From positions 1,736,001 to 1,800,000 of the forward strand of contig CANTAL010000027.1 in NCBI GenBank assembly GCA_947650365.1: 64,000 bases of DNA, in the 5' to 3' direction. The notes beneath the pieces were generated by a model. That model made no database searches, was not told the DNA's origin, and saw nothing but the letters and a program-made list of their open reading frames with translations. Each line of letters starts with the position of its first letter. The first letter of the stretch is position 1. The DNA is from Chamaelirium japonicum (Eukaryota; Streptophyta; Magnoliopsida; Liliales; Melanthiaceae). The position numbers and the translations under genes were made by a program. Below are positions 29,301-62,703 of the stretch, in pieces.

Positions 29301-30861
29301 TCTAATTCATTCGTACGATCCATTCTAATTCATTCGCACAATCTATTCTAATTCATTCGTACGATCCATTCTAATTCATTCGCACGATCCATTCTAATTC
29401 ATTTACACGATCCATTCTAATTCATTCATACAAACCATTCTAATTCTTTTGCACAAATGTATCCATTCTAATTCATTTGTACGATCCATTCTAATTCCTT
29501 TGTACGATCCATTCTATTTCATTCGTATGATCCATTCTAATTCCTTCGTACGATCCATTCTAATTCATTCCCATGAATGTATCCATTCTAATTCATACGT
29601 ACGATCCATTCTAATTCATTCATACGATCCAATCTAATTCATTCATAAGATCCATTCTAATTCATTCGCACGAATGTATCCATTCTAATTCATTCGTACG
29701 ATCCATTCTAATTCATTCGCACAATCTATTCTAATTCATTCGCACGATCCATTCTAATTCATTCATACGATCCATTCTAATTCATTCGCACGATCCATTC
29801 TAATTCATTCATACGATCCATTGTAATTCATTCATACGATCCATTCTAATTCATTCACACGAATGTATCCATTCTAATTCATTCGTACGATCCATTCTAA
29901 TTTATTCGCACAATCTATTCTAATTCATTCGTACGATCCATTCTAATTCATTAGGACGATCCATTCTAATTCATTCGTACGATCCATTCTATTTCAATCG
30001 TACGATCCATTTATACTCATTCGTACGATCCATTCTAATTCATTCGCACGAATGTATCCATTCTAATTCATTCGTACGATCCATTCTAATTCATTCGCAC
30101 GATCCATTCTAATTCATTCATACGATCCATTCTAATTCATTCATACGATCCATTCTAATTCATACGCACGATCCATTCTAATTCATTCATATGATCCCTT
30201 CTAATTCATTCATACAATTCATTCTAATTCTTTCGCACGAATGTTTCCATTCTAATTCATTCGTACGATCCACCCTAATTCCTTCGTATGATCCATTCTA
30301 ATTCATTCGAACAAATATATCCATTCTAATTCATTCGTACGATCCATTCGAATTCATTCATACGATCCATTCTAATTCATTGATACGATCCATTCTAATT
30401 CATTCGCACGAATGTATCCATTCTAATTCATTCGTACGATCCATTCTAATTCATTCGCACAATCTATTCTAATTCATTCGTACGATCCATTCTAATTCAT
30501 ACGCACGATCCATTCTAATTCATTTGCACGATCCATTCTAATTCATTCATACAATCCATTCTAATTCTTTTGTACAAATTTATCCATTCTAATTCATTCG
30601 TACGATCCATTCTAATTCCTTCGTATGATCCATTATAATTCCTTCGTACGATCCATTCTAATTCCTTCGTACGATCCATTCTATTTCATTCGTATGATCC
30701 ATTCTAATTCCTTCATACGATCCATTCTAATTCATTCCCATGAATGTTTTCATTCTAATTCATACGTACGATCCATTCTAATTCATTCATACGATCCAAC
30801 CTAATTCATTCATAAGATCTATTCTAATTCATTCACACGAATGTATCCATTCTAATTCATT
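26365..30861 (+). repeat. 4,497-bp tandem segmental duplication, copy 1
   Basis: The order and detail of variants repeat from 30,862 with a constant offset of 4,497 bp at every point I checked, including the TTAATTTGCACG unit (26,382 and 30,879), the start of a CGAATG unit (27,121 and 31,618) and an open frame of identical translation (29,449 and 33,946). If it held only 23- and 28-bp units, 4,497 bp would be 159 of the first and 30 of the second, a plausible mix. Inside, GATCCACCC joints about 1.12-1.14 kb apart show a subunit of roughly 48 monomers (one decayed to GATCCGCCC). Copies differ at few positions, so the duplication looks recent. Confidence 0.9.
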
Positions 30862-33800: not shown

Positions 33801-35358
33801 AATTCATTCGTACGATCCATTCTAATTCATTCGCACAATCTATTCTAATTCATTCGTACGATCCATTCTAATTCATTCGCACGATCCATTCTAATTCATT
33901 TACACGATCCATTCTAATTCATTCATACAAACCATTCTAATTCTTTTGCACAAATGTATCCATTCTAATTCATTTGTACGATCCATTCTAATTCCTTTGT
34001 ACGATCCATTCTATTTCATTCGTATGATCCATTCTAATTCCTTCGTACGATCCATTCTAATTCATTCCCATGAATGTATCCATTCTAATTCATACGTACG
34101 ATCCATTCTAATTCATTCATACGATCCAATCTAATTCATTCATAAGATCCATTCTAATTCATTCGCACGAATGTATCCATTCTAATTCATTCGTACGATC
34201 CATTCTAATTCATTCGCACAATCTATTCTAATTCATTCGCACGATCCATTCTAATTCATTCATACGATCCATTCTAATTCATTCGCACGATCCATTCTAA
34301 TTCATTCATACGATCCATTGTAATTCATTCATACGATCCATTCTAATTCATTCACACGAATGTATCCATTCTAATTCATTCGTACGATCCATTCTAATTT
34401 ATTCGCACAATCTATTCTAATTCATTCGTACGATCCATTCTAATTCATTAGGACGATCCATTCTAATTCATTCGTACGATCCATTCTATTTCAATCGTAC
34501 GATCCATTTATACTCATTCGTACGATCCATTCTAATTCATTCGCACGAATGTATCCATTCTAATTCATTCGTACGATCCATTCTAATTCATTCGCACGAT
34601 CCATTCTAATTCATTCATACGATCCATTCTAATTCATTCATACGATCCATTCTAATTCATACGCACGATCCATTCTAATTCATTCATATGATCCCTTCTA
34701 ATTCATTCATACAATTCATTCTAATTCTTTCGCACGAATGTTTCCATTCTAATTCATTCGTACGATCCACCCTAATTCCTTCGTATGATCCATTCTAATT
34801 CATTCGAACAAATATATCCATTCTAATTCATTCGTACGATCCATTCGAATTCATTCATACGATCCATTCTAATTCATTGATACGATCCATTCTAATTCAT
34901 TCGCACGAATGTATCCATTCTAATTCATTCGTACGATCCATTCTAATTCATTCGCACAATCTATTCTAATTCATTCGTACGATCCATTCTAATTCATTCG
35001 CACGATCCATTCTAATTCATTTGCACGATCCATTCTAATTCATTCATACAATCCATTCTAATTCTTTTGTACAAATGTATCCATTCTAATTCATTCGTAC
35101 GATCCATTCTAATTCCTTCGTATGATCCATTATAATTCCTTCGTACGATCCATTCTAATTCCTTCGTACGATCCATTCTATTTCATTCGTATGATCCATT
35201 CTAATTCCTTCATACGATCCATTCTAATTCATTCCCATGAATGTTTTCATTCTAATTCATACGTACGATCCATTCTAATTCATTCATACGATCCAACCTA
35301 ATTCATTCATAAGATCTATTCTAATTCATTCACACGAATGTATCCATTCTAATTCATT
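30862..35358 (+). repeat. 4,497-bp tandem segmental duplication, copy 2
   Basis: This is the near-identical second copy of 26,365-30,861. One local exception is informative. The unit with CTATGTTTGCTAATTC at about 27,413 in copy 1 is replaced near 31,910 by a standard CGCACAATCTATTC unit, while both flanks still match. That could be a short gene-conversion tract or loss of the mutation (inference). After 35,358 the order continues as at 28,600, not as in copy 1, which sets the right boundary. Confidence 0.9.
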
Positions 35359-35850
35359 CGTACGATCCATTCTAATTCATTCGCACAATCTATTCTAATT
35401 CATTCGCACGATCCATTCTAATTCATTCATGCGATCCATTCTAATTCATTCGTACGATCCATTCTAATTCATTCGCACGATCCATTCTAATTCATTCATA
35501 CGATCTATTCTAATTCATTCATACGATCCATTCTAATTCATTCACACAAATGTATCCATTCTAATTCATTCGTATGATCCATTCTAATTCATTCGTACGA
35601 TCTATTCTAATTCATTCGTACGATCCATTCTAATTCATTAGCACGATCCATTCTAATTCATTTGTCCGATCCATTCTATTTCAATCGTACGATCCATTCT
35701 TACTCATTCGTACGATCCATTCTAATTTATTCGCACGAATGTATCCATTCTAATTCATTCGTACGATCCATTCTAATTCATTCGCACGATCTATTCTAAT
35801 TCATTCATTTGATCCATTCTAATTCATTCGTACGATCCATTCAAATTCAT

Positions 35851-36565
35851 TCGCACAATCTATTCTAATTTATTCGTACGATCCATTCTAGTTCATTAGC
35901 ACGATCCATTCTAATTCATTCGTACGATCCATTCTATTTCATTCGTACGATCCATTCTTACTCATTCGTACGATCCATTCTAATTCTTTCGCACGAATGT
36001 ATCCATTGTAATTCATTCGTACGATCCACTCTAATTCATTCGCACGATCCATTCTAAATCATTCATACGATCCATTTTAATTCATTCGTACGATCCATTC
36101 TAATTCATTCGCACGATCCATTCTAATTCATTCATACCATCCATTCTAATTCATTAATACAATCCATTTTAATTCTTTCGCACGAATGTATTCATTCTAA
36201 TTCATTCGTACGATCCACCCTAATTCCTTCGTATGATCCATTCTAATTCATTCGCACAAATGTATCCTTTCTAATTCATTCGTACGATATATTCGAATTC
36301 ATTCATACGATCTATTCTAATTCATTTATACGATCCATTCTAATTCATTCGCACGAATGCATCCATTTTAATTCATTCGTACCATCCATTCTAATTTATT
36401 CGCACAATCGATTCTAATTCATTCGTATGATCCATTCTAATTCATTCGCACGATCCATTCTAATTCATTTGTACGATCCATTCTAATTCATTCATACAAT
36501 CCATTCTAATTCTTTTGCACGAATGTATCCATTCTAATTCATTCGTACGATCCATTCTAATTCAT
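35851..36565 (+). repeat. 715-bp tandem block, copy 1
   Basis: It repeats at 36,566 with an offset of exactly 715 bp. The length fits 25 monomers of 23 bp plus 5 of 28 bp. Shared rare marks are CCATTGTAATTC (36,003 and 36,718), GATCCACTCTAATTC, CTAAATCATTC and a CGCACAATCGATTC unit near the right end. Confidence 0.85.
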
Positions 36566-37140
36566 TCGCACAATCTATTCTAATTTATTCGTACGATCCA
36601 TTCTAATTCATTAGCACGATCCATTCTAATTCATTCGTACGATCCATTCTATTTCATTCGTACGATCCATTCTTACTCATTCGTACGATCCATTCTAATT
36701 CTTTCGCACGAATGTATCCATTGTAATTCATTCGTACGATCCACTCTAATTCATTCGCACGATCCATTCTAAATCATTCATACGATCCATTTTAATTCAT
36801 TCGTACGATCCATTCTAATTCATTCGCACGATCCATTCTAATTCATTCATACGATCCATTCTAATTCATTAATACAATCCATTTTAATTCTTTCGCACGA
36901 ATGTATCCATTCTAATTCATTCGTATGATCCACCCTAATTCCTTCGTATGATCCAATCTAATTCATTCGCACAAATGTATCCTTTCTAATTCATTCGTAC
37001 GATCCATTTGAATTCATTCATACGATCTATTCTAATTCATTTATACGATCCATTCTAATTCATTCGCACGAATGCATCCATTTTAATTCATTCGTACGAT
37101 CCATTCTAATTTATTCGCACAATCGATTATAATTCATTCG
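36566..37140 (+). repeat. 715-bp tandem block, copy 2 (partial)
   Basis: This follows copy 1 for about 575 bp, up to the CAATCGATTATAATTC unit near 37,122, after which the order changes. So the second copy is incomplete or has been overwritten on its right side. Confidence 0.8.
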
Positions 37141-38117
37141 CACGATCCATTCTAATTCATTCATACGATCCATTCTAATTCATTCGTACGATCCATTCTA
37201 ATTCATTCGCACGATCCCTTCTAATTCGTTCATACGATCCATTCTAATTCATTCATACAATCCATTCTAATTCTTTCGCACGAATGTATCCATTCTACTT
37301 CATTCGTACGATCCACCCTAATTACTTCGTATGATCCATTCTAATTCATTCATATGATCCATTCTAATTCATTCGCACGAATGTATCCATTCTAATTCAT
37401 TCGTATGATCCATTCTAATTCATTCGCACAATCTATTCTAATTCATTCGTACGATCCATTCTAATTCATTCGCACGATCCATTCTAATTAATTTGTACGA
37501 TCCATTCTAATTCATTCATACAATTCATTCTAATTCTTTTGCATGAATGTATCCATTCTAATTCATTCATACGATCCATTCTAATTCCTTCGTACGATCC
37601 ATTCTAATTCCTTCGTACGATCCATTCTAATTCATTCCCATAAATGTATCCATTCGAATTCATACGTACGATCCATTCTAATTCATTCATATGATCCAAT
37701 CTAATTCATTCATACGATCCATTCTAATTCAATTGCACAAATGTATCCATTTTAATTCATTCGTACGATTCATTCTAATTCATTCGCACATTCTATTCTA
37801 ATTCATTCGTACGATCCATTCTAATTCATTAGCACGATCCATTCTAATTCATTCGTACGACCCATTCTAGTTCATTCGTACGATTCATTCTTACTCATTC
37901 GTACGATCCATTCTAATTCATTCGTACGATCCATTCTAATTCATTCGCACGATCCATTCTAATTCATTCATACGATCCATTCTAATTCATTCGCACGATC
38001 CATTCTGATTCATTCATACGATCTATTCTAATTCATTCGCACGATCCATTCTAATTCATTCGCACGAATGTATCCATTCTAATTCATTCACACAATCTAT
38101 TCTAATTTTTTCGTACG

Positions 38118-41100
38118 CGTGCAAATGAATTAGAATGGATCGTGCGAATGAATTAGAATGGATCGTATGAATGAATTAGAATAGATTGTGCGAATGAATA
38201 AGAATGGATCGTACGAATGAATTAGAATTGATACATTCATGCGAATGAATTAGAATGGATCGTATGAATGAATTAGAATGGATCGTATGAATGAATTCGA
38301 ATGGATCGTACGAATGAATTAGAATGGATACATTCGTGCGAATGAATTAGAATGGATCATACGAAGGAATTAGGGTGGATCGTACGATTGAATTAGAATG
38401 GATACATTCGTGCGAAAGAATTAGAATGGATTGTATGAATGAATTAGAATGGATCGTCGAATGAATTAGAATGGATCGTACGAAGGAATTAGAATGGATC
38501 ATACAAATGAAATAGAATGGATCGTACGAAGGAATTAGAATGGATCGTACGAAGGAATAAGAATGGATCGTACGAATGAATTAGAATGGATACATTCGTG
38601 CAAAAGAATTAGAATGAATTGTATGAATGAATTAGAATAGATCGTGCAAATGAATTAGAATGGATCGTGCGAATGAGGATACATTCGTGCGAATGAATTA
38701 TAATGGATCGTACGAATGAGTAAGAATGGATCGTACGAATGAAATAGAATGGATCGTATGAATGAATTAGAATGGATCGTCTGAATGAATTAGATTTGAT
38801 CGTGCGAATGAATTAGATTGAATGGATCATACGAATGGATAAGAATAGATCAAGCGAATGAATAAGAATGAATTAGAATGGATTGCATGAATGAATTAAA
38901 ATGGATCGTATGAATGAATTAGAATTGATCGTACGAATGAAATAGAATGGATCGTGCGAATGAATTAGAATGGATCGTATGAATGAATTAGAATGGATCG
39001 TGCTAATGAATTAGAATGGATCGTACGAATGAATTAGAATAGATTGTGCGAATGAATTAGAATGGATCGTATGAATAAATTAGAATGGATACATTCAAGG
39101 GAATGAATTAGAATGGATACATTCGTGCGAATGAATTAGAATGGATCGTAAGAATGAATTAGATTGGATCGTATGAATGAATTAGAATGGATCGTACGTA
39201 TGAATTAGAATGGATACATTCAAGGGAATGAATTAGAATGGATCGTACGAAGGAATTAGAATGGATCATACGAATGAAATAGGATGGATCGTACGAAGGA
39301 ATTAGAATGGATCGTACGAAGGAATTAGAATGGATCGTACGAATGAATTAGAATGGATATATTCGTCCAAAAGAATTAGAATGGATTGTATGAATGAATT
39401 AGAATAGATCGTATGAATGGATTAGAATGGATCGTGCGAATGAATTAGATTGGATCGTACGAATAGATTAGAATGGATCATATGAATGAATTAGAATGGA
39501 TCGTGCAAATGAATTAGAATGGATGGTACGAATGAATTAGAATGGATACATTCGTGCGAATGAATTAGAATGGATCGTACGAATGAGTAAGAATGGATCA
39601 TACGAATAAAATAGAATGGATCGTACGAAGGAATTAGAATGGATCGTGCTAATGAATTAGAATGGATCGTACAAATGAATTAGATTAGATTGTGCGAATG
39701 AATTAGAATGGATCGTACAAATGAATTAAAATGGATATATTCATGCGAATGAATTAAAATGGATCGTATGAATGATTTAGATTGGATCGTATAAATGAAT
39801 TTGAGTGGATCGTATGTATGAATTAGAATGGATACATTCATGGGAATTAATTTAAATGGATCGTACGAAGGAATTAGAATGGATCATATGAATGAAATAG
39901 AATGGATCATACGAAGGAGTTAGAATGGATCGTACGAAGGAATTAGAATGGATCGTATGAAGGAATTAGAATGGATCGTACGATTGAATTAGAATGGATA
40001 CATTCGTGCAAAAGAATTAGAATGGATTGTATGAATAAATTAGAATGGATCGTACGAATGAATTAGAATGGATCGTACGAATGAATTAGAATGGATCGTA
40101 CGAATGAATTAGAATGGATACATTCGTGCGAAAGAATTAGAATGGATCGTACGAATTAGAATCAGAATGGATCGTACGAATGAATTAGAATGGATCGTAC
40201 GTATGATTGTGCGAAAGAATGGATCGTACAAATGAATTAAAATGATATATTCATGCGAATAATTAGAATGGATGGTACGAATGAATTAGAATGGATCGTA
40301 CGAATGAATTAGAATGGATCGTACAAACGAATTAGAATGGATCATGCAAATGAATTAGAATGGATCATACGAATGAATTAGAATGGATAAATTCATGCGA
40401 ATGAATTAGAAAGGACCGTACGAATGAGTAAGAATGGATCGTACGAATGAAATAGAATGGATCGTATGAATGAATTATAATGGATCGTGCGAATGAATTA
40501 GAATGGATCGTACGAATGAGTAAGAATGGATCGTACGAATTTAATAGAATGGATTGTACGAATGAATTAGAATGGATACATTCATGGGAATGAATTAGAA
40601 TGGATTGTACGAAGGAATTAGAATGGATCATACGAATGAAATAGAATGGATCGTACAAAGGAATTAGAATGGATCGTACGAAGGAATTAGAATGGATCGT
40701 ACGAATGAATTAGAATGGATCGTACGAATGAATTAGAATGGATACATTCGTGCAAAAGAATTAGGATGGATTGTATGAATGAATTAGAATGGATCGTGCG
40801 AATGAATTAGAATGGATCGTATTAATGAATTAGAATAGATTGTGCGAATGAATTAGAATGGATCGTACGAATGAATTAGATTAGATACATTCGTGCGAAT
40901 GAATTAGAATGGATCGTATAAATGAATTAGATTGGATCGTATAAATGAATTAGAATGGATCGTGCGAATGAATTAGAATGGATCGTACGAATGAATTAGA
41001 ATGGATACATTCGTGCGAATGAATTAGAATGTATCGTACGAATGAGTAAGAATCAATCGTACGAATAAAATAGAATGTATAGTACGAATGAATTAGAATG

Positions 41101-41436
41101 GATCGTGCTAATGAATTAGAATGGATCGTACGAATGAATTAGAATAGATTGTGCGAATGAATTAGAATGGATCATACGAATGAATTAGAATGGATCGTAT
41201 GAATGAATTAGAATGGATCGTGCGAATGAATTAGAATGGATCGTACGAATTAATTATAATGGATACATTCATACGAATTAATTAGAATGGATCGTACGAA
41301 TGAGTAAGAATGGATCGTACGAATAAAATAGAATGGATCGTATGAATGAATTAAAATAGATCGTGCAAATGAATTAGAAGGGATCGTACGAATGAGTAAG
41401 AATTGAACGTACGAATGAAATAGAATGGATCGTATG
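38118..41436 (-). repeat. First large inverted satellite block
   Basis: From CGTGCAAATGAATTAG at 38,118 the same monomer reads as its reverse complement, with GAATTAGAATGGATCGTACG repeated. All usual variants occur in inverted form, including 28-bp units (GGATACATTCGTGCG) and the marker trio (GAATGAGTAAGAATGG followed by GAATGAAATAG). GC skew therefore flips sign. The block is 3.3 kb and is more irregular than the + block, with clipped monomers near 38,455, 38,670, 38,815 and 40,140-40,250. It ends in GGATCGTATGTACGATCC. No gene is present. Confidence 0.95.
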
Positions 41437-46246: not shown

Positions 46247-49200
46247 GAGTAAGAATAGACCGTACAAATAAAATAGAATTGATCATACGAATGAATTAGA
46301 ATAGATTGTGCGAATGAATTAGAATGGATCATACGAATGAATTAGAATGGATCGTATGAATCAAATAGAATGGATCGTGTGAATGAATTAGACTGGATCG
46401 TACGAATGAATTAGAATGGATACATTTGTGCGAATGAATTAGAATGGATCATACGAATTAGTAAGAATGGATCGTAGGAATGAAATAGAATGGATCGTAC
46501 GAATAAATTAGAATGGATCGTGCTAATGAATTAGAATGGATCGTACGAATGAATTAGAATAGATTGTGAGAATGAATATATTCGTGCGAATGAATTAGAA
46601 TGGATCGTATGAATGAATTAGAATGGATCGTATGAATGAATTCAAATGGATCGTATGAATGAATTAGAATGGATACATTCGTGCGAATGAATTAGAATGG
46701 ATCGTATGAATGAAATAGAATGTATCCATTCTAATTCTAATTCATTCATAGAATGGATCGTACGAAGGAATTAGAACGGATCGTATGAATGTATTAGAAT
46801 GGATCGTACGAATGAATTAGAATGGATACATTCATGCGAATGAATTAGATTGGATCGTACGAATGAGTAAGAATGGATCGTACGAATGAAATAAAATGGA
46901 TCGTACAAATGAATTAGAATGGATCGTGCGAATGAATTAGATTGGATCGTGCGAATGAATTAAAATGGATCGTATGAATGAATTAGAATAGATACATTCG
47001 TGCGAATGAATTAGAATGGATCGTGTGAATTAATTAGAATGGATCGTATGAATAAATTCGAATGGATCGTACGAATGAATTAGAATGGATCGTGTGAATG
47101 AATTAGAATGGATCCTACGAATGAATTAGAATGGATCGTATGAATGAAAGAATGGATCGTACGAATGAAATAGAATGGATCGTACGAATGAATTAGAATG
47201 GATCGTGCTAATGAATTAGAATGGATACATTCGAGCGAATGAATTAGAATGGATCATACGAATGAATTAGAATGGATCGTACGAATGAATTAGGGTGGAT
47301 CGTGCGAATGAATTAGAATGGATCATTCTAATTCATTCGTACGATCCATTCTAATTCATTCGCACGATCCATTCTAATTCATTTGTACGATCCATTCGAA
47401 TCCATTCTAATTAGAATGGATCGTATGAATGAATTAGAATAGATCATGCGAATGAATTAGAATGGATCGAACGAATGAATTAGAATGGATATATTCGTGC
47501 GAATGAATTAGAATGGATTGTATGATTGAATTAGAATGGATCGTATGAATGAATTCGAATGGATCGTACGTATGAATTAGAATGGATCGTCAAATGAATT
47601 AGAATGGATCGTATGAATGAATTAGAATGGATCGTGCGAATGAATGAGAATTGGATCGTACGAATGAATTAGAATGGATCGTACGAATGGATCGTACGAA
47701 TGAATTAGAATTGATACATTCGTGCAAAAGAATTATAATGGATTGTATGAATGAATTAGAATGGATCGTACAAATGAATTAGAGTGGATCATGTGAATGA
47801 ATTAGAATGGATCGTACGAATGAAATAGAATAGATTGTGCGAATGAATTAGAATGGATCGTACGAATGAATTAGAATGGATACATTCGTGCGAAAGAATT
47901 AGAATGGATTGTATGAATGAATTAGAATGGATCGTATGACGTATAAATTAATTAGAATGGATCGTACGAATGAATTAGAATGGATCGTACGAACGAATTA
48001 GAATGGATACATTCGTGCGAAAGAATTAGAATGGATTGTATGAATGAATTAGAATGGATCGTATGAATGAATTAGAATGGATCGTGCGAATGAATTAAAA
48101 TAGATCGTACGTATGAATTAGAATGGATCGTGCGAAAATGGATCGTACGAATAAATTAGAATGGATCGTATGAATGAATTAGAATGGATCGTGCGAATGA
48201 ATTAGAATGGATTGTATAAATGAATTAGAATGGATCGTATGAATGAGTAAGAATGGATCGTATGAATGAATTAGAATAGATTGTGTGAATGAGTTAGAAT
48301 GGATCGTACAAATGAATTAGAATGGATACATTCATGCGAAGGACTTAGAATGGATCGTACGAATGGATCGTACGAAGGAATTAGAATGAATTAGAATGGA
48401 TACATTCGTGCGAATGAAATAGAATGGATCGTATGAATGAATTAGATTGGATCGTATGAATGAATTTGAATGGATCGTACGTATGAATTAGAATAGATAC
48501 ATTCATGGGAATGAATTAGAATGGATCATACAAAGGAATTAGAATGGATCATACGAATAAATTAGAATGAATCGTACGAATGAATTAGAATGGATCGTAC
48601 GAATGAATTAGAATGGGTCGTACGAATGAATTAGAATTGATCGTATGAATGAATTAGAATGGATCGTATGAATGATCGTATGAATGAATTAGAATGGATC
48701 GCACAATGGATCGTATGAATGAATTCGGATGGATCGTATGAATGAATTAGAATGAATTAGAATGGATCGTACGAATGAATTAGAATAGATATTTTTATGT
48801 GAAGGAATTAGAATGGATCGTACGAATGGAACGTACGAAGGAATTAGAATAAATTAGAATAGATACATTCGTGCAAATGAATTAGAATGGATCGTACGAA
48901 TGAATTAGAATGGATACATTCGTACGAATGAATTAGAATGGATCGTATGAATGAATTAGAATGGATCGTACGTATGAAATTAGAATGGATCGTACGAATG
49001 AATTAGAATGAATTCGAATGGATCGCACGAATGAATTAGAATGGATCGTGCGAATGAATTAGAATGGATACATTCGTGCGAATGAATTAGAATGGATCGT
49101 ACGAATGAGTAAGAATGGATCGTACGAATGAATTAGAATAGATTGTGCGAATGAATTAGAATTGATACATTTGTGCGAAAGAATTAGAATGGATTGTATG

Positions 49201-51722
49201 AATGAATTAGAATGGATCGTATGCATGAATTAGAATGGATCGTCCGAATGAATTAGAATGGATCGTGCTAATTCATTCATACAATCCATTCTAATTCATT
49301 TGTACAATCCATTCTAATTCATTCGCACAATCTATTAGAATGAATTAGAATGGATATATTCGTGCGAATGAATTAGAATGGATCGTATGAATGAATTAGA
49401 ATGGATCGTACGAATGAATTAGAATGGATCGTGCGAACGAATTAGATTGGATCGTGCGAATGAATTAGAATGGATCATACGAATGAATTAGAATGGATAC
49501 ATTCGTGCGAATGAATTAGAACGGATCGTATGATCGAATTAGAATGGATCGTGCGAATGAATTAGAATGGATTGTGCTAAAGAATTAGAATGGATCGTAC
49601 GAATGAAATAGAATGGATCGTTCGAATGAATTAGAATGGATCGTGCTAATGAATTAGAATGGATCATACAAATAAATTGGAATAGATTATGCGAATGAAT
49701 TAGAATGGATCCTGCGAATGAATTAGAATGGATACATTCGTACGAATGAATTAGAATGGATCGTACAAATGAATTAGAATGGATCGTATGAAATTAGAAT
49801 GGATACATTCGTGCGAATGAATTAGAATGGATCGTACGAATGAATTAGAATGGATACATTTGTGCGAAAGAATTAGAATGGATTGTATGAATGAATTAGA
49901 ATGGATACATTCATGGGAATGAATTAGAATGGATCGTACAAATGAATTAGAATAGATTGTACAAATAAATTAGAATGGATCGTACGAATGAATTAGAATG
50001 GATATATTCGTGCGAATGAATTAGAACGGATCGTATGAATGAATTAGATTGGATCGTATGAAAGAATTAGAATGGATTGTATGAATAAATTAGAATGGAT
50101 CGTACGAATGAATTAGAATGAAATAGAAAATGGATCGTATGAAGGAATTAGAATGGATCGTGCGAATGAATTAGAATGGATCTTATGAATGAATTCGAAT
50201 GGATCGTACGAATGAATTAGAATGGATACATTTGTGCGAATGAATTAGAATGGATCATACGAAGGAATTAGGGTGGATCGTATGAATGAATTAGAATGGA
50301 TACATTCATGCAAAAGAATTTGAATAGATTGTATGACTGAATTAGAATGGATCGTATGAATGAATTAGAATGGATCATGCGAATAAATTAGAATGGATCG
50401 TATGAACGAATTAGTATGAATGAATCGTACGAATGGATTAGATGGATTGTAGGAATGAATTGGAATGGATCGAGCGAATGAATTAGAATGTATCGTACAA
50501 ATGATGAATTAGAATGAAATAGAATGGATTCTATTGATGAATTAGAATGGATTGTACGAATGAATTAGAATGGATCGTACGAATGAATTAGAATAGAATA
50601 GAATGGATTAGAATGGATCGTATGAATGAATTAGATTGGATTGTATGAATGAATTAGAATGGATCGTTAGAATGAATTAGAATGGATCGTATGAATAAAT
50701 TAGAATGGATCGTACGAAAGAATTAGAATGGATCGTACTAATGAATTAGAATGGATACATTCGTGCGAATGAATTAGAATGGATCGTACGAATGAGTAAG
50801 AATGGATCGTACGAATGAAATAGAATGGATCATACGAATGAATTAGAATGGATCGTGCTAATGAATTAGAATGGATCGTACGAATGAATTTGAATAGATT
50901 GTGCGAATGAATTAGAATGGATACATTCGTGCGAAAGAATTAGAATGGATTGTACGAAGGAATTAGGGTGGATCGTACGAATGAATTAGAATGGATACAT
51001 TCGTGCAAAGGAATTAGAATTGATTGTATGAATGAATTAGAATGGATCGTATGAATGAATTAGAATGGATCGTGCGAATGAATTAGAATGGATTGTGCTA
51101 ATGAGTAAGAATGGATCGTACGAATGAAATAAAATGGATCGTACAAATGGATTAGAAGGGATCGTGCTAATGAATTAGAACGTATCGTACGAATGAATTA
51201 GAATAGATTGTGCGAATGAATTAGAATGGATCGTGCGAATGAATTAGAATGGATACATTCGTGCGAATGAACTAGAATGAATCGTACGAATGAATTAGAA
51301 TGGATCGTATGAAAGAATTAGAATGGATCGTATGAATGAATTCGAATGGATCGTACGAATGAATTAGAATGGATACATTCGTGCGAATGAATTAGAATGG
51401 ATCAAACGAAGGACTTAGGGTGGATCGTACGAATGAATTAGAATGGATACACTCGTGCGAAAGAATTAGAATGGATTGTATGAATGAATTAGAAAGGATC
51501 GTATGAATGAATTAGAATGGATCGTGCGAATGAATTAGAATGGATCGTATGAATGAATTAGAATGGATACATTCGTGCGAAAGAATTTGAATGGATCGTA
51601 CGATGAGTAAGAATGGATCGTACGAATGAAACAGAATGGATCGTACGAATGAATTAGAATGGATCGTGCTAATGAATTAGATTGGATCGCACGAATGAAT
51701 TAGAATGGATCGTATGAATGAA
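46247..51722 (-). repeat. Inverted block with three short + islands
   Basis: Most of this 5.5 kb is reverse-complement monomers. Short + islands lie at 46,721-46,749, 47,321-47,410 and about 49,268-49,336. The 47,410 joint is the 22-bp palindrome of the window. Monomers are more often clipped or fused than in the first 35 kb, for example around 48,350-48,420, 48,660-48,860 and 50,395-50,620. No large tandem duplication is obvious here. It ends at GAATGAATTCGTATGATCC, where the + orientation resumes. Confidence 0.9.
47400..47421. repeat. 22-bp palindromic joint, + to - switch
   Basis: This is the same 22-bp perfect palindrome as at 23,545 and 55,365. A + monomer ending CCATTCTAA turns into an inverted monomer starting TTAGAATGG, with AATT at the centre. 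Here it closes a 90-bp + island. Confidence 0.92.
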
Positions 51723-52380
51723 TTCGTATGATCCATTCTAATTCATTCGCACGAATGTATCCATTCTAATTCATTTGTACGATACATTCTAATTTCATTC
51801 GCACGATCCATTCTAATTCATTCATACGATCCATTCTAATTCAATCGTACGATCCATTCTAATTCATTCATACAATCCAATCTAATTCATTCATAGAATC
51901 CATTCTAATCCATTCTATTCTATTCTAATTCATTCGTACGATCCATTCTAATTCATTCGTACGATCCATTCTAATTCATCCATACAATCAATTCTATTTC
52001 ATCATTCGTACGATACATTCTAATCATTCGCACGATCTATTCCAATTCATTTATACAATCCATTCTAATTCATTCGTACGATTCATTCGTACTAATTCGT
52101 TCATACGATCCATTCTAATTTATTCGCATGATCCATTCTAATTCATTCATACGACCCATTCTAATTTATTCATACAATCCATTCTAATTCTTTCGCACGA
52201 ATGTATCCATTCTAATTCATTCATACGATCCACCCTAATACCTTCGTATGATCCATTCTAATTCATTCGCACGAATGTATCCATTCTAATTTATTCGTAC
52301 GATCTATTCGAATTCATTCATAAGATCCATTCTAATTCATTCGCACGATCCATTCTAATTCATTCATACGATCCATTTTA

Positions 52381-52410
52381 TAATTCATTCTAATTCATTC
52401 TAATTCATTC
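52381..52410 (+). repeat. 10-bp sub-repeat, TAATTCATTC three times
   Basis: Three exact copies of TAATTCATTC stand in tandem where one 23-bp unit would be expected. Each copy lacks the CGTACGATC part of the monomer. Slippage or deletion between the internal ATTC copies explains it. Confidence 0.93.
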
Positions 52411-54417
52411 GTACGATCCATTCTAATTTATTCATACAATCCATTCTAATTCATTCATACGATCCAATCTAATTCATTCATACGATCCATTCTAATTAAT
52501 TCGTACGAATGTATCCATTCTAATTCATTCGTACGATACATTCTAATTCATTCGCACGAATGTATCCATTCGACTTTATTCGTACGATCCATTCTAATTC
52601 ATTTGTACAATCTATTCTAATTTATTTGTACGATCCATTCTAATTCATTCCCATGAATGTATCCTTTCTAATTCATTCATACAATCCATTCTAATTCTTT
52701 CACACGAATGTATCCATTCTTATTCATTCGTACGATCCATTCTAATTCATTCGCACGAATGTATCCATTCTAATTTGATACGATCCATTCTAATTGATTC
52801 GTACGATCCATTCTAATTCATTCGCACGAATGTATCCGTTCTAATTCATTTGCACGATCCATTCTAATTCATTCGCACAATCTATTCTAATTTATTTGTA
52901 CGATCCATTCTAATTCATTAGCATGATCCATTCTAATTCATTCGTACGATCCATTCTAATTCATTCGCACGATCCAATCTACTTCATTCGCACGATCCAT
53001 TCTAATTCATTCGTACAATCCATTCTAATTCATTCATACGATCCATTGTAATTCATTCGCACGAATATCCATTCTAATTTATTCTAATAGATTGTGCGAA
53101 TGAATTAGAATGTATTTTACAAATGAATTAGAATGGATTGTATGAATGAATTAGCACGATCCATTCTAATTCATTCGGACGATCCATTCTAATTCATTCA
53201 TACGATCCATTCTAATTCTTTCGCACAAATGTATCCATTCTAATTCATTCGCACAATCTATTCTAATTCATTCGTACGATCCGTTCTTACTCATTCGTAC
53301 GATCCATTCTAATTCATGCGCACGAATGTATCCATTCTAATTCATTCGTACTATCCATTCTAATTCATTCGCACGATCCATTCTAATTCATTCATACGAT
53401 CCATTCTAATTCATTCGTACAATCCATTCAAATTCATTCGCACGATCCATTCTAATTCATTCATACGATCCATTCTAAATCATTCATACAATCCATTCTA
53501 ATTCTTTCGCACGAATGTATCCATTCTAATTCATTCGAACGATCCACCCTAATTCCTTCATATACGAATGAATTAGAATAGATTGTGCGACATTCATACG
53601 ATCCATTCTATTTCATTCGCACGAATGTATCCATTCTAATTCATTCGTGCGATCCATTCTAATTCATTCTAATCCATTCTAATTCATTCGTACGATCCAT
53701 TATAATTTCATACGTACGATCCATTCTAATTCATTCTAATTCATTCATACGATCCATTCTAATTCATTCGTACGAATGTATCCATTTTAATTCATTCGTA
53801 CGATCCATTCTAATTCATTCGCACGAATGTATCCGTTCTAATTCATTCTAATTCCATCGTACGATCCATTTTAATTCCTTCACACGAAAATATCCATTCT
53901 AATTCATCCGCACGATCCATTCTAATTCATTCTAATTCATTCGTGCGATCCATTCGAATTCATTCATACGATCCATTGTGTGATCCATTCTAATACATTC
54001 ATACGATCATTCATACGATCCATTTTAATTCATTCATACGATCCATTCTAATTCATTTGTACGATCCATTCTAATTCATTCATACGATCCATTCTAATTC
54101 ATTCGTACGATCCATTCTAATTTATTCGTATGATCCATTCTAATTCCTTCGTATGATCCATTCTAATTCATTCCCATGAATGTATCCATTCCAATTCATA
54201 CGTACGATCTCTTCGTACGATCCATTCTAATTCCTTCGTATGATCCATTCTAATTCCTTCGTACGATCCATTCTAATTAATTCCCATGAATGTATCCATT
54301 CTAATTCATAGGTACAATTCATTCTAATTCATTCACATGATCCAATCTAATTCATTCATACGATCCATTCTAATTCATTCGCACGAATGTATCCATTTTA
54401 ATTCATTCTAATTCCTT

Positions 54418-54456
54418 CGTACGATCCATTCGTACGATCCATTCGTACGATCCATT
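54418..54456 (+). repeat. 13-bp sub-repeat, CGTACGATCCATT three times
   Basis: Three exact tandem copies of the other part of the monomer, lacking TAATTCATTC. A two-copy version with one change (CGTACGATACATT) stands near 1,619, and related two-copy forms are near 8,714 and 13,045. The 10- and 13-bp pieces add up to the 23-bp monomer, which suggests a natural weak point at ATTC. Confidence 0.93.
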
Positions 54457-55364
54457 CTAATTCCTTCACATGAATATATCCATTCTAATTCATTCTTACG
54501 ATCCATTCTAACTCATTCGCACAATCTATTCTAATTCATTCATACGATCCATTCTTACTCATTCGTATGATCCATTCTAATTCATTCTAATTCATTTATA
54601 CAATCCATTCTAATTCATTCGCACGATCCATTCTAATTCATTCATACGATCCATTCTAATTTATTCGTACGATCCCTTTTCGCACGATCCATTCTAATTC
54701 ATACGTACGATCCATTCTAATTCATTCACACGATCCATTCTAATTCATTCATACGATCCATTCTAATTCATTCATACAATCCATTCTAATTCTTTCACAC
54801 GAATGTATCCATTCTAATTCCTTCGTACGATTCATTCTAGTTCATTCGTACGATCCATTCGAATTCATTCATACGATCCATTCTAATTCATTCATATGAT
54901 CCATTCTAATTCATTCGCACGAATGTATCCATTCTAATTCATTCGTACGATCCATTCTAATTCATTCGCACAATCTATTCTATTTCATTCGTACGATCCA
55001 TTCTAATTCATTCACATGATCCATTCTAATTCATTTGTACGATCCATTCTAATTCATTCATACAATCCATTCTAATTCTTTTGCACGAATGTATCAATTC
55101 TAATTCATTTGTACGATCCATTCATACGATCCATTCTAATTCATTTGTACGATCCAATTCTCATTCATTCGCACGATCCATTCTAATTCATTCATACAAT
55201 CCATTCTAATTCATTCGTACGATCCATTCTAATTCATACATACGATCCACTCGAATTCATTTATACGATCCATTCTAATTCATTCGCACGAATGTATCCA
55301 TTCTAATTCATTCTTACGATCCATTCAAATTCATTCGCACGATCCATTTTAATTCATTCATATG

Positions 55365-55386
55365 ATCCATTCTAATTAGAATGGAT
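55365..55386. repeat. 22-bp palindromic joint, + to - switch
   Basis: This is the third copy of the same perfect palindrome, with AATT at its centre. The inverted DNA that follows starts with a clipped monomer (GGATTAGAATGGATCG). Confidence 0.92.
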
Positions 55387-56856
55387 TAGAATGGATCGTA
55401 CAAATGAATTAGAATGGATCGTGCGAATGAATTAGAATGGATCGTACAAATGAATTAGAATGGATCGTGCGAATGAATTAGAATGGATCGTACGAATGAA
55501 TTAGAATGAATACATTCGTGCGAATGAATTAGAATGGATCGTACGAATGAGTTAGAATGGATTAAAATGAATTAGAATAGATCGCACGAATGAATTAGAA
55601 TGGATACATTCGTGCTAATGAAATAGAATGAATCGTATGAATGTCGCACAATCTATTCTAATTCATTCGTATACGAAGGAATTAGGGTGGATCGTACGAA
55701 TGAATTTGAATGGATACATTCGTGCGAAAGATTTAGAATGGATTGTATGAATGAATTAGAATGGATCGTGCGAATGAATTATAATGGATCGTACGAATGA
55801 ATTAGAATGGATCGTGCGAATGAATTAGAATGGATCGTACGAATGAATTAGAATGGATACATTCGTGCGAATGAATTAGAATGAATCGTACGAATGAGTA
55901 AGAATGGATCGTACGAATGAATTAGAATAGATTGTGCGAATGAATTAGAATGGATACATTTGTGCGAAAGAATTAGAATGAATTGTATGAAAGAATTAGA
56001 ATGGATTGTATGAATGAATTAGAATGGATCGTATGAATGAATTAGAATGGATCATCCGAATGAATTAGAATGGATCGTGCTAATTCATTCATACAATCCA
56101 TTCTAATTCATTTGTACAATCCATTCTAATTCATTCGCGCAATCTATTCTAATTCATTCGTACGATCATTCTAATTCATTCGCACGATCCATTCTAATTC
56201 ATTCGTACGATCCATTCTAATTCATTCGTACTAATTCATACGATCCATTCTAATTCATTCGTACGATCCGTCCTAATTCATTTGCATGAATTAGAATGGA
56301 TACATTCGTGCGAATGAATTGGAATGGATCGTACGAATGAGTAAGAATGGATCGTACGAATGAAATAGAATGGATCATACAAATGAATTAGAATTGATCG
56401 TGCTAATGAATTAGAATGGATCGTACGAATGAATTCATTCAAATTCATACGATCTATTCTAATTCATTCTAATTCATTCTAATTCATGCATACGATCGTA
56501 CGAATGAATAAGAATGGATCGTACGAATGAAATAGAATGGATCATGCGAATAAATTAGAATGGATCGTGCTAATGAATTAGAATGGATCGTACGAATGAA
56601 TTAGAATAGATTGTGCGAATGAATTAGAATGGGTCGTACGAATGAATTAGAATGGATCGTATGAATGAATTAGAATGGATCGTACGAATGAATTCGAATC
56701 GATCGTGCGAATGAATTAGAATGGATAGTACGAATGAATTAGAATGGATACATACGAAAGAATGAATTAGAATAGATCCTACGAATGAATTAGAATGGAT
56801 ACATTCGTGCGAATGAATTAGAATGGATCGTTTGAATGAATTAGAATGGATCGTAC
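55376..56856. repeat. Strand-switch cluster, first copy of the repeated switching module
   Basis: Orientation alternates in short blocks: - from 55,376, + at 55,644-55,671, - to about 56,080, + to about 56,284, - to 56,433, + to 56,495, and - to 56,856. Joints include TTCGTATACGAA (55,666-55,677), GAATGAATTCATTC (56,427-56,440), TACGATCGTA near 56,491 and GATCGTACGTACGATC (56,849-56,864), all perfect palindromes. The part from about 55,860 to 57,400, including the joints at 56,081, 56,284, 56,433, 56,495 and 56,856, recurs about 5.9 kb later with the same order of blocks. Confidence 0.9.
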
Positions 56857-58315
56857 GTACGATCTATTCTATTTCATTCGTACAATCCATTTTACTTATT
56901 CGTACGATCCATTCTAATTCATTCGCATGATCCGTTCTAATTCATTCATACGATCCATTCTATTTCATTCGTACGATCCATTCTTACTCATTCGTACGAT
57001 CCATTCTAATTCATTCGCACGAATGTATCCATTCTAATTTATTTTTTACGATCCATTCTAATTCATTCGTACGATCCATTCTAATTCATTAGCACGATCC
57101 ATTCTAATACATTCGTACGATCCATTCTAATTCATTCATACGATCCATTCTAAATCATTTGCACGAATGTATCCATTCTAATTCAGTCGTACGATCCATT
57201 CTAATTCATTCGCACAATCTATTATAATTCATTCGTACGATCCATTCTAATTCATTAGCACGATCCATTCTAATTTATTCATACGTTCCATTCTAATTCA
57301 TTCTAATTCGAATTCATTCAAACGATCCATTCTAATTCATTCGCACGATCCATTCTAATTCATTCATACGATCCATTCTAATTCATTCGTACGATCCATT
57401 CTAATTCATTCGCACGATCCATTCTAATTCATTCATACGATCCATTCTTATTCTTTCTCACGAATGTATCCATTCTAATTCATTCGTACGATCCATTCTA
57501 ATTCATTCGTACGATCCATTCTTACTCATTCGTACGATCCATTCTAATTCATTCACACGAATGTATCCATTCTAATTCATTCGTACGATCCATTCTAATT
57601 CATTTGCACGATCCATTCTAATTCATTCATACGATCCAATCTAATTCATTCATACGATCCATTCTAATTCATTCGCACGAATGTATCCATTCTAATTCAT
57701 TCGTATGATCCATTCTAATTCATTCGCACAATCTATTCTAATTCATTCGTACGATCCATTCTAATTCATTAGCACGATCCATTCTAATTCATTTGTACGA
57801 TCCATTCTATTTCATTCGTATGATCCATTCTTACTCATTCGTACGATCCATTCTAATTCATTCGCACGAATGTATCCATTCTAATTCATTCGTACGATCC
57901 ATTCTAATTCATTCGCACGATCCATTCTAATTCATTCATACGATCCATTCTAATTCATTCGTACGATCCATTCTAATTCATTCGCACGATCCATTATAAT
58001 TCATTCATACGATCCATTCTAATTCATTCGTACGATCCATTCTAATTCATTCGCACGATCCATTCTAACTCATTCATACGATCCCATCTATTTCATTCAT
58101 ACGACCCATTCTAATTCATTCGCACGGATGTATCTATTCTAATTCATTCGTACGATCCATTCTAATTCATTCGCACAATCCGTTCTAATTCTTTCGTATG
58201 AATGTATCCATTCTAATTCATTCGTACGATCCATTCTAATTCATTTGCACGATCCATTCTAATTCATTCATACGACCCATTTTATTTCATTCATTCGATC
58301 CATTCGTGCGAAAGA
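56857..58315 (+). repeat. + block after the first switch cluster
   Basis: Ordinary + monomers with 28-bp units and marker trios. The first part matches 62,704 onward. Near 57,300 a CTAATTCGAATTC unit is shared with about 63,147. The block ends in CGATCCATTCGTGCG, where + CCATTC runs into the CATTCGTGCG of an inverted 28-bp unit. No gene is seen. Confidence 0.92.
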
Positions 58316-59515
58316 GTTAGAATGGATTGTATGAATGAATTAGAATGGATTGTATGAATGAATTAGAATAGATCGTGCGAATGAATTAGAATGGATCATA
58401 TGAATGAATTAGAATGGATCATATGAATGAATTAGAATGGATCGTGTGAATGAATTCGAATGGATCGTACGAATGAATTAGAATGGATGCATTCGTGCGA
58501 AAGAATTAGAATGGATTGTGCGAATGAATTAGAATGGATCGTACGAATGAATTAGAATGGATACATTCGTGGGAATGAATTAGAATGGATCGTATGAATG
58601 AATTAGATTGGATCGTATGAATAAATTAGAATGGATCATACGAATGAATTAGAATGGATCATACGAATGAATTAGAATGGATCGTATGAATTAATTATAA
58701 TGGATCGTGCAATACAATTAAAATGGATCGTACGAATGAATTAGAATGAATCGTATGAATGAATTAAAATGGATCGTGCGAATGAATTAGAATGGATCGT
58801 ACGAATGAATTAGAATGGATACATTCGTGCGAATGAATCAGAATGGATCGTACGAATGAGTAAGAATGGATCGTACGAATGAATTTGAATGGATCGTGCG
58901 AATGAATTAGAATGGATACATTTATGCGAGAGAATTAGAATGGATTGTATGAATGAATTAAAATGGATCATATGAATGAATTAGAATGGATCGTGCAAAT
59001 GAACAAGAATACATCGTACGAATGAATTAGAATGGATCGTATGAATGAATTAGAATGGATCGTGCGAATGAATTAGAATGGATCGTGCAAATGAACAAGA
59101 ATACATCGTACGAATGAATTAGAATGGATCGTATGAATGCATTAGAATGGATCGTACGAATTAATTAGAATGGATCGTATGAATGAATTCGAATGGATCA
59201 TACGAATGAATTAGAATGGATCGTATGAATGAATTCGAATGGATCGTACGAATGAATTAGAATAGATACATTCGTGCGAATGAATTAGAATGGATCATAA
59301 GAAGGAATTAGGGTGGATCGTACGAATGAATTAGAATGGATCGTACGAATGAATTAGAATGGATCATGCGAATGAATTAGAATGGATCGTACGAATGAAT
59401 TAGAATGGATACATTCGTACGAATGAATTAGAATGGATCGTACGAATGAATTAGAATGGATCGTACGAATGAATTAGAATAAATCGTAGGAATGGATCGT
59501 ACGAATGAAGTAGAC
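58316..59515 (-). repeat. Inverted satellite block
   Basis: 1.2 kb of reverse-complement monomers. A short local doubling is visible: units around GTGCAAATGAACAAGAATACATCG occur near 58,992 and again near 59,086, about 94 bp apart (four monomers). It ends in an irregular GTAGACTTATTCGATCG before the + orientation resumes. Confidence 0.92.
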
Positions 59516-60250
59516 TTATTCGATCGATTCTAATTCATTCGCACGATCCATTCTAATTCATTCATACGATCCATTCTAATTCATTCATACGATCCATTCT
59601 AATTCATTCGTACGAATGTATCCATTCTAATTCATTCAAACGATCCATTCTAATTCATTCATACGATCCATTCTAATTCATTCGCACGAATGTATCCATT
59701 CTAATTCATTCGTACGATCCATTCGATTTCATTCGCACGATCCATTCTAATTCATTCATACGATCCATTCTAATTCATTCGTACGATCCATTCTAATTCA
59801 TTCGCAAGAATCTATCAATTCTAATTCATTCGTACGATCCATTCTAATTCATTCGCACGATCCATTCTAATTCATTCATACGATCCATTCTAATTCATTC
59901 GTACGATCCATTCTAATTCATTCGCACGATCCATTCTAATTTATTCTTACGATCCAATCTAATTCATTCATTTAATCCATTCAAATTCTTTCGCACGAAT
60001 GCATCTATTCTAATTCATTCGTACGATCCATTCGAATTCATTCATACGATCCATTCTAATTCATTCATACGATCCATTCTAATTCATTCGCACGAATGTA
60101 TCAATTCTAATTCATTCGTACGATCCATTCTAATTCATTCGCACGATCCAATCTAATTCATTCGCACGATCCATTCTAATTCATTAGCACGATCCTTCTA
60201 ATTCATTCGTATGATCCATTCTATTTCATTCGTACGATCCATTCTTACTC
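59516..60250 (+). repeat. + satellite block
   Basis: 735 bp of + monomers with several 28-bp units. It ends within a CTTACTC unit, where CTTACTCA joins directly to ATGAATTAG of the next inverted block. Confidence 0.92.
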
Positions 60251-61124
60251 AATGAATTAGAATGGATCGTGCGAATGAATTAGAATGGATCGTACGAATG
60301 AATTAGAATGGATACATTCGTGCGAATAAATTAGAGTAGATCGTATAAATGAGTAAGAATGGATCGTAGGAAAAAAATAGAATGGATCGTAGGAACGAAT
60401 TAGAATGGATCGTACGAATGAATTAGAATGGATACATTCGTGCGAATGAATTAGAATGGATCGTATGAATGAATTAGAATGGATCGTATGAATGAATTCG
60501 AATGGATCGTACGAATGAATTAGAATAGATGCATTCGTGCGAAAGAATTTGAATGGATTATATGAATGAATTAGATTGGATCGTATGAATGAATTAGAAT
60601 GGATCGTGCGAATGAATTAGAATGGATCGCACGAATGAATTAGAATGGATCGTATGAATGAATTAGAATGGATCGTGCGAATGAATTAGAATGGATCGTC
60701 GGAATGAATTAGAATGGATCGTATGAATGAATTCGAATGGTTCGTACGAATGAATAAGAATGGATACATTCGTGTGAATGAATTAGAATGGATCATACGA
60801 AGATATTAAGGTGGATGGTACGAATGAATTAAAATGGATCGTACGAATGAATTAGAATGGATCGTGCGAATGAATTAGAATGGATCATATGAATGAATTA
60901 GATTGGATACATTCATGCAAAAGAATTAGAATGGATTTTATGAATAAATTAAAATGGATTGTGCAAATGAATTAGAATGGATCGTACTAAAGAATTAGAA
61001 TGGATCATACGAAGGAATTAGAATGGATCGTACGAAGGAATTAGAATGGATCGTACGAATGAATTAGAATGGATCATGCGAATGAATTAGAATGGATTGT
61101 ATGAATGAATTAGAATGGATTGTA
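60251..61124 (-). repeat. Inverted satellite block
   Basis: 874 bp of reverse-complement monomers including inverted 28-bp units. The right joint, GTACGAATCTATCC, uses CGAAT, which both strands contain because of the dyad in the 28-bp unit. Confidence 0.92.
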
Positions 61125-61568
61125 CGAATCTATCCATTCTAATTCATTCCTTGGCACAATCTATTCTATTTCATTCGTACGATCCATTCTAATTCATTCA
61201 TTCGTATGATCCATTCTATTTCATACATACGATCCATTCTAATTCATTCGCACGAATGTATTCATTCGCACAATCTATTCTAATTCATTCGTAGGATCGA
61301 TTCTAATTCATTAGCACGATCCATTCTAATTCATTCGTACGATCCATTCTATTTCATTCGTACGATCCATTCTTACTAATTTGTACGATCCATTCTAATT
61401 CATTCGCACGAATGTATTCATTCTAATTCATTCATATGATCCATTCTAATTCATTCGCACGATCCATTCTAATTCATTCATAGGAGATCCATTCTAATTC
61501 ATTCGTACGATCCATTCTAATTCATTCGCACAATCTATTCTAATTCATTCATACGAATCCATTCTAAT
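61125..61568 (+). repeat. + satellite block
   Basis: 444 bp of + monomers, with clipped units near 61,144 (CATTCCTTGGCAC) and 61,485 (CATAGGAGATCC). It ends in CCATTCTAATGGATCG, where + CTAAT fuses to inverted AATGGATCG. Confidence 0.9.
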
Positions 61569-62703
61569 GGATCGTACGAATGAGTAAGAATAGATTGTGC
61601 GAATGAATTAGAATGGACCGTACGAATGAATTAGAATGGATACATTCGTGCGAATGAATTAAATGGATCGTATGAATGAATTAGATTGGATCGTATGAAT
61701 GAATTAGAATGGATCGTGCGAATGAATTTGAATGGATCGTATGAATGAATTAGAATGGATACATTCCTGCGAATGAATTAGAATGGATCGTACGAATGAG
61801 CAAGAATGGATCGTACGAATGAATTAGAATAGATTGTGCGTATGAATTAGAATGGATAGATTTGTGCGAAACAATTAGAATGGATTGTATGAATGAATTA
61901 GAATGGATCGTATAAATGAATTAGAATGGATCGTATGAATGAATTAGAATGAATCGTCCGAATGAATTAGAATGGATCATGCTTATTCATTCATACAATC
62001 CATTCTAATTCATTTGTACAATCCATTCTAATTCATTCGCACAATCTATTCTAATTCATTCGTACGATCCATTCTAATTCATTCGCACGATCCATTTTAA
62101 TTCGTTCGTACGATCCATTCTAATTCGTTCATACTAAATCATACGATCCATTCTAATTCATTCGTACGATCCATTCTAATTCATTTGCATGAATTAGAAT
62201 GGATAGATTCGTGCGAATGAATTAGAATGGATCATACGAATGAGTAAGAATGGATCGTACGAATGAAATAGAATGGATCATACGAATGAATTAGAATGGT
62301 TCGTGCTATTGAATTAGAATGGATCGTACGAATGAATTCATTCTAATTCATACGATCCATTCTAATTCATTCTAATTCATGCATACGATCGTACGAATCA
62401 ATAAGAATGGATCGTACGATTGAAATAGAATGGATCGTACGAATGAATTAGAATGGATCGTGCTAATGAATTAGAATATATCGTACGAATGAATTAGAAT
62501 AGATTGTGCGAATGAATTAGAATGGGTCGTACGAATGAATTAGAATGGATCGTATGAATGAATTAGAATGGATCGTGCGAATGAATTAGAATGGATCGTA
62601 CGAATGAATTACAATGGATACATACGAAAGAATGAATTAGAGTGGATACATTCGTGCGAATGAATTAGAATGGATCGTATAAATGAATTAGAATGGATCG
62701 TAC
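61569..62703. repeat. Strand-switch cluster, second copy of the repeated switching module
   Basis: Alternating blocks: - to about 61,982, + to about 62,187, - to 62,336, + to 62,388, and - to 62,703. They follow the same series as 56,081-56,856, about 5,902 bp upstream. The TTTGCATGAATTAG joint stands at 56,281 and 62,184 (5,903 bp apart), GAATGAATTCATTC at 56,427 and 62,330 (5,903 bp) and TACGATCGTA at 56,491 and 62,384 (5,893 bp). So the switches were copied as a set, not created twice. The last joint has decayed to CGTACGTATGATCC. Confidence 0.9.

Follow-up and report, generated by a model that had tools for sequence, protein, structure and literature searches.

How does a tandem satellite come to change strand again and again within one array, and what decides where the switches fall? 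The question is raised by a window of 64,000 nucleotides from Chamaelirium japonicum (contig CANTAL010000027.1, here C39:1,736,001-1,800,000, within a 1.52-Gb assembly), all 64,000 bases of which were assigned by a hidden Markov model (HMM) and Tandem Repeats Finder (TRF) to a 23-bp tandem repeat with a 28-bp variant; about 415 of 2,690 window units take a 5-base branch (ATGTA) after base 9 (HMM). Our main finding is that most strand-switch joints in the window are old, having been inherited in ordered blocks that are common to arrays on different chromosomes. The joints also carry more short homology than random joins, and we favour, with a probability of roughly 0.58, the view that they were formed by microhomology-mediated template switching and then copied by duplication and interchromosomal exchange.

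The window appears to be the centromeric Chio1/Chio2 holocentromere satellite of Chionographis japonica (Kuo et al. 2023, PMC10264360), because the monomer lengths, the 5-bp indel, the 9-bp word TTCGTACGA in the window consensus and the mixed orientation all match; the comparison is with described features, not with a published consensus. The available text of that study describes Chio1 and Chio2 as 23- and 28-bp monomers that are a 5-bp indel apart, with dyad symmetries including one of 8 bp, and reports mixed forward and reverse arrays in every centromere unit, a higher-order cluster (CL73), a HiFi assembly and, by chromatin immunoprecipitation, CENH3 binding of the satellite. According to the same study, CENH3-interacting DNA makes up about 17% of the genome. 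Forward and reverse arrays were likewise mixed in the satellite examined here. A 25-base piece of the unit had no exact match in the genome and viral contigs searched, and window positions 30,001-34,000 had no megablast match among phages and plasmids, a search in which low-complexity filtering may hide matches. Whereas the publication speaks of an 'individual mixture' of orientations in each unit and gives no joint sequences in the available text, the present analysis resolves the joints, their homology and their order across units.

Joint order is shared between chromosomes

Joints were called with a circular two-strand HMM carrying a branch for the 28-bp unit. A 9-mer orientation map was rejected in its favour, since many of the 159 runs in that map were false flips of 9-11 bp. 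With this model the window had 34 strand switches, all but four of them between 46,247 and 62,703, and the count was robust to the weight given to switching (31, 32 and 34 at scalings of 0.01, 0.1 and 10). An earlier note on this DNA had listed 17 joint coordinates, all of which are real, each lying at most 4 bases from an HMM strand switch. To the window we added 250 kb from nine chromosome scaffolds, giving 12 sequences of 314 kb with about 281 kb of satellite, in which 320 joints were called; the rank of C3-C10 as chromosome scaffolds was inferred from their size. The commonest type, A, accounted for 37 of the 320.

Comparison of flanks showed that many joints are copies of other joints. 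They were therefore collapsed at several levels: grouping by consensus neighbourhood gave 60 types, and grouping by flanks gave 81 events with a conservative threshold or 112 with a stricter one. The 34 window joints correspond to 21 events, and 15 of these are common to at least three other chromosomes or contigs, which is at odds with the local origin that the earlier note had implied. Its joints are not independent either: because several are mutual copies (47,410 and 55,375; 56,433 and 62,336; 41,436, 56,856 and 62,703; 56,495 and 62,388; 56,284 and 62,187), the 17 coordinates reduce to 11 events, 5 of them with at least 4 bp of homology. Some joints have a narrower distribution. Both ends of a 16-bp flip (23,558-23,573) are events confined to the window among the 12 sequences examined, and the left joint of the block at 38,118-41,436 is private to the window, with 0 bp of homology, while its right joint belongs to the event also present at 56,856 and 62,703.

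Not only single joints but also their order recurred between chromosomes. Twenty of the 135 adjacent event pairs were found on at least three chromosomes or contigs; 1,000 shuffles of the order gave 10 on average and never more than 17. Spacings were often equal or about one unit apart (206/207 or 183 bp; 150 or 173 bp), and other adjacent pairs drifted in spacing by hundreds of bases. The pair of joints called G and F was separated by 28 bp in all 16 occurrences listed, on 7 chromosomes or contigs, and the C'-O' pair by 70 bp in all 6 occurrences listed, on 5 chromosomes or contigs. A 951-bp query spanning five successive switches of the window was aligned to the assembly; the best 40 of 8,272 candidates each matched it at 89-100% identity across 940 bases or more. 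These 40 lie on C3, C5, C7, C8, C9 and C10 and on contigs C39, C45, C59, C145, C156, C192 and C209, and since 40 of the 8,272 candidates were scored, the distribution is a lower bound and gives no rate. Contigs C39 (2.02 Mb) and C45 (1.90 Mb) carry near-identical islands (99-100%) with similar spacing, and may represent two haplotypes or a large-scale duplication of a single centromere unit.

Short homology at the joints

The expected frequency of homology was obtained by joining real satellite pieces at random 1,200 times and scoring these joins with the identical pipeline; 5.75% of them had at least 4 bp. The earlier note had proposed a comparison with random breakpoints in a larger sample, and this was carried out on the 320 joints of the 12 sequences: 26 of the 81 events had at least 4 bp of homology, against 4.7 expected. 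The excess was present at stricter flank thresholds (45 of 112, 6.4 expected; 37 of 98, 5.6 expected) as well as at coarser collapsing (17 of 70, 4.0 expected; 11 of 60 types, 3.4 expected). Matched draws of 60 distinct types gave a mean of 3.2 and a maximum of 7, so that none of 200 reached the observed 11. When breakpoints were permuted with the hot spots of each side kept, the observed value (27 of 81, by consensus homology) was likewise never attained in 2,000 permutations (mean 7.8, maximum 17). In the window alone, 9 of 21 events had at least 4 bp (median over event copies), compared with the 5.75% of random joins. Joints on short words common to both strands thus exceed random breakpoints even with copies collapsed and hot spots kept.

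Joint types also recurred. The 81 events fall into 60 types, one of which was hit 8 times, while 81 random joins gave about 74 types with at most 4 hits on any one (50 draws). Types with little homology tend to form a single family and types with homology tend to split into several, which fits the idea that homology makes the same joint arise anew; there are exceptions both ways, such as two 0-bp types with three families each and one 4-bp type with a single family.

The earlier note had placed its emphasis on three palindromic tetramers, AATT, GTAC and GATC, and this part largely did not hold. A tetramer lay within 6 bp of 17 of the 34 window joints and of 32 of the 60 types, compared with 48% of random joins, that is, at chance. 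Inside the homology itself, a palindromic tetramer was commoner than chance (14 of 81 events versus 2.25% of random joins). Among events with at least 4 bp it was present in 14 of 26, versus 39% of random joins (p=0.09), and at the stricter flank threshold in 26 of 45 (p=0.009), so that palindromes are weakly favoured. Scored strictly, 8 of the 17 earlier joints have at least 4 bp of homology and the other 9 have less than 4 bp. AATT was confirmed at 23,555, 47,410 and 55,375 and lost at 56,433 and 62,336, where homology is 0 bp unless one further supposes a deletion on the same strand. GATC at 56,495 and 62,388 has at least 4 bp, and so do ATGAAT at 56,284 and 62,187 and GTACGAAT at 61,125. 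The proposed GTAC joints at 41,436, 56,856 and 62,703 have just 1-2 bp and the CTAAT joint at 49,268 has 1 bp. The joints described as lacking homology (46,246, 53,590 and 59,515) were correctly so described, with 1, 0 and 0 bp. All in all, the earlier observation is real but its count was inflated; its short-homology part stands, and its palindrome and fold-back parts mostly do not.

Template switching, end joining and fold-back

Complex rearrangements attributed to microhomology-mediated break-induced replication or to fork stalling and template switching (MMBIR/FoSTeS) show consecutive switches, several at a time, with homology of a few base pairs, much like the joints described here, in which homology is above chance and the switches are serial and non-reciprocal. 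We propose that monomer copies on opposite strands were joined via microhomology, most likely through serial template switches of this kind during repair synthesis of broken forks; the stretches between switches would then remain as inverted pieces, some tens to hundreds of bases long. The words on offer would be the 8-bp dyad (TCGTACGA), AATT, GATC and, through the 28-bp unit, GAATG/CATTC, and because the monomer supplies these shared words, the same joint types may have arisen repeatedly. Blocks bearing joints would then have been copied, by segmental duplication within arrays and by exchange between centromere units of different chromosomes, and such copying would account for most joints present in the window. 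Which polymerase mechanism was at work, when it acted and how the joints spread are what we infer from these patterns. One difference from MMBIR/FoSTeS cases is that satellite template is everywhere here, so that sources cannot be named; flipped pieces match the satellite in many places and mirror tests yielded no clear template source.

Several points weigh against this reading. The sampled loci were picked for likeness to the island of the window or to a core element described below, and are not a random sample of arrays, and the number of independent events varies from 60 to 112 with the flank threshold. Homology is 0 bp in 27 of the 60 types and 1 bp in another 8, together 35, so that either blunt joining also occurs or later changes hide the homology. 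When each type is counted once, at least 4 bp is found in none of 27 single-copy types (1.6 expected), and the excess at the level of types hence comes from the multi-copy types, 11 of 33 of which have it; with the threshold giving 81 events, 11 of 41 single-copy events have at least 4 bp. Polymerase-theta end joining would produce homology like that of template switching and may be the source instead. Finally, routes of spread such as gene conversion, circular DNA or others are not separated by the present data.

Microhomology-mediated end joining of double-strand breaks without replication, either as two-break inversions or as capture of loose fragments, would leave an identical homology signature, and we consider it an unlikely though serious alternative. 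Because the second joint of a two-break inversion is fixed by the first, inversions predict reciprocal paired joints. We examined 73 distinct adjacent joint pairs at most 600 bp apart, excluding pairs that touch the 5-bp insert of the 28-bp unit. Just 2 of the 73 fitted a reciprocal inversion, which is the chance level (about 3.5 expected by arithmetic), and the outer phase was continued in 13 of 73, no more than chance (about 16 expected by arithmetic). The two pairs that fitted, adjacent GATC-to-GATC pairs at C10:~60,861.6k-60,864.4k, look like in-place inversions between GATC sites. The scarcity of reciprocal pairs favours serial switching or fragment capture.

In fold-back, the version that the earlier note had put forward, a strand that has broken would pair with its own complement at a short palindrome, and synthesis would then run back along it. 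We judge it improbable as the source of the joints. Re-priming of a strand on its own complement should leave arms that mirror each other on either side of the joint. Clean arms were available for 73 of the 81 events, and in the first 120 bp, 3 of these 126 arms beat all 20 random satellite pieces (6 expected). For 11 of the 126 arms (3 expected), the best mirror place was at most 60 bp away from the joint, but these were without exception poor matches (rank 0.4 to 1.0) resembling end effects. By type (57 of 60), the best ranks were 0.025, in two types, with the AATT and 8-bp-dyad types poorly represented, by the 16-bp flip at 23,558. Collinear chains were also sought over 1.2 kb in 154 arms of 77 events and in 462 control arms. 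Chains with at least two consistent steps occurred in 6 of 154 arms and 17 of 462 controls; chains with at least one step were commoner in real arms (52 of 154 versus 102 of 462), which leaves room for a weak or old fold-back signal, and the age of the joints may hide such a signal.

A single joint, at 51,723, does fit re-priming on a nearby complement, for which there was little general support. Here, mirror arms of about 3.7 kb are separated by a spacer of about 937 bp, with 3 bp of homology (ATT). When the right arm was taken in successive pieces of 400 bp, 10 of 12 aligned with the left arm as an inverted, collinear series, with offsets that drift from 937 to 326 bp and 91-99% identity, and joints are mirrored around it (47,413/55,378, 49,268/53,155 and 49,338/53,085). 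Chromosome scaffold C3 carries the order C' O' R' O too, three of four pieces there lying at offset 944. Nevertheless, the mirror score of 603 by itself does not stand out from those of 26 controls, whose 95th percentile was 624 and whose maximum was 769, and one of six control arms likewise showed six collinear pieces in a run, because such blocks occur elsewhere. Human fold-back duplications have spacers of 766-70,466 bp and homology of 2-8 bp in the available text of PMC3907307; the structure at 51,723 resembles them in its inverted arms, its single-copy spacer and its short homology, unlike the remaining joints, which as a set are without clear mirror arms. Mirrored G-F pairs also flank an AATT joint, D, in islands on C1, C9 and C10 and at window positions 53,563-56,080 (e.g. 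711 vs 1,778 bp). This arrangement suggests a second asymmetric inverted duplication, for which the sequence match, examined in the window alone, is weak.

That the joints bear no special relation to homology and reflect chance followed by copying would agree with the chance frequency of nearby tetramers and with the inflation of the earlier count by copies. It is nonetheless very improbable, since strict homology exceeded random joins at all five levels of collapsing and exceeded the hot-spot permutation as well. Satellite arrays are hard to assemble, yet an assembly artefact can practically be dismissed, given that the same joints recur with similar spacing on several chromosomes and unplaced contigs and that mixed orientation in every unit was published from a HiFi assembly (PMC10264360).

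Neighbouring features, related satellites and meaning

The features of the window are collected below. Its one-strand array contains large near-identical direct duplications, that is, duplication on the kilobase scale, at offsets of 4,497 (from about 26.4 kb), 5,141 and 5,164 (from 13 to 17.8 kb) and 7,105.

Table 1. Coordinates of the satellite features within the 64,000-nucleotide window.
Feature	Position	Strand	Basis or remark
Chio-like array on one strand, 28-bp units scattered among 23-bp units (TTCGTACGATCCATTCTAATTCA)	1..38117	+	HMM, TRF; sole internal flip is 16 bp
16-bp flip	23558..23573	-	Left joint AATT (4 bp), right joint GTACGA (6 bp)
Reverse-strand block	38118..41436	-	HMM, flank comparison
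Strand-switch island, 30 of 34 window joints	46247..62703		HMM
Left arm of inverted duplication, mostly reverse strand	47413..50785		Collinear mirror matches; starts at AATT joint 47,413
70-bp flip, joints C' and O'	49268..49337	+	Mirrored copy at 53,085-53,154
Single-copy spacer of inverted duplication, ~937 bp	50786..51722	-	Collinear mirror matches
Right arm of inverted duplication	51723..55377		Joint 51,723 (ATT, 3 bp) to ~AATT joint 55,378
28-bp flip, joints G and F	53563..53590	-	Mirrored copy at 55,644-55,671
Cassette with five strand switches (56,080; 56,286; 56,436; 56,496; 56,856)	56080..56856		951-bp query search
Type A joint, 5-bp homology CATTC/GAATG	58306		HMM joint list
Joint with 8-bp homology GTACGAAT, longest in window	61129		HMM joint list
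Second five-switch cassette copy, ~5.9 kb downstream	61982..62703		Flank comparison, joint order

Two other kinds of element were met in the satellite outside the window. The core element mentioned above (e.g. locus L010:9285-9457, C8:71,254,285) has a non-satellite core of about 166 bp with two inverted arms of about 58 bp, inner palindromes and a loop containing satellite. It was recovered at 40 places scored of 411 candidates, on scaffolds C1-C5 and C7-C10 and on unplaced contigs, and in the 14 copies whose surroundings were read it sits in satellite at a strand switch. As a centre of symmetry, these 14 cores had arms above background for just about 100 bp, and sampled 20-mers of the non-satellite part were not found in the window. 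At loci L019 (C5:~40,377.85k) and L023 (C9:~23,183.7k), the satellite ends abruptly at transposon termini with CCGACGG-like subterminal repeats, which we take to be of CACTA type from their end motif.

The macro-dyad satellites of Tribolium madens (PMC13081366) are alike in having subarrays of opposite orientation and conserved inversion sites. As described in the text available, they mostly have two subarrays per array, tending to symmetry, with few and homogeneous inversion types, whereas the switches here number in the dozens, often lie less than 600 bp from one another, are asymmetric and carry short homology. A macro-dyad structure, with two symmetric subarrays around a conserved inversion site, does not fit here, where many runs are asymmetric and the arms around the core element drop to background beyond about 100 bp. 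The Chama satellite of Chamaelirium luteum (PMC12722358) shares with Chio the word TTCGTACGA, but it has a 60-bp monomer and consistently oriented arrays in a monocentric species. Because Chama carries the shared word and yet keeps a consistent orientation, the dyad alone seems insufficient for strand switching.

How centromere units came to spread along C. japonica chromosomes is given as unknown in the available text of PMC12722358, and PMC8997354, in the part available, appeals to microhomology-based repair at maize and human centromeres while calling for further evaluation. In the literature searched, supplements aside, no account was found that describes homology at the joints of Chio or an order of joints common to units. 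The microhomology excess at the joints provides a testable repair signature. Joints with little homology, which tend to belong to single families and whose order and spacing are common to chromosomes, could mark which units seeded which. We tentatively suggest, as an idea less likely to be right than wrong, that the ordered joints are a heritable barcode of cassettes that seeded the many centromere units of this holocentric genome, a few master blocks having arisen by microhomology template switching and been copied from chromosome to chromosome; if so, the order of joints in the barcode would record which centromere unit seeded which.

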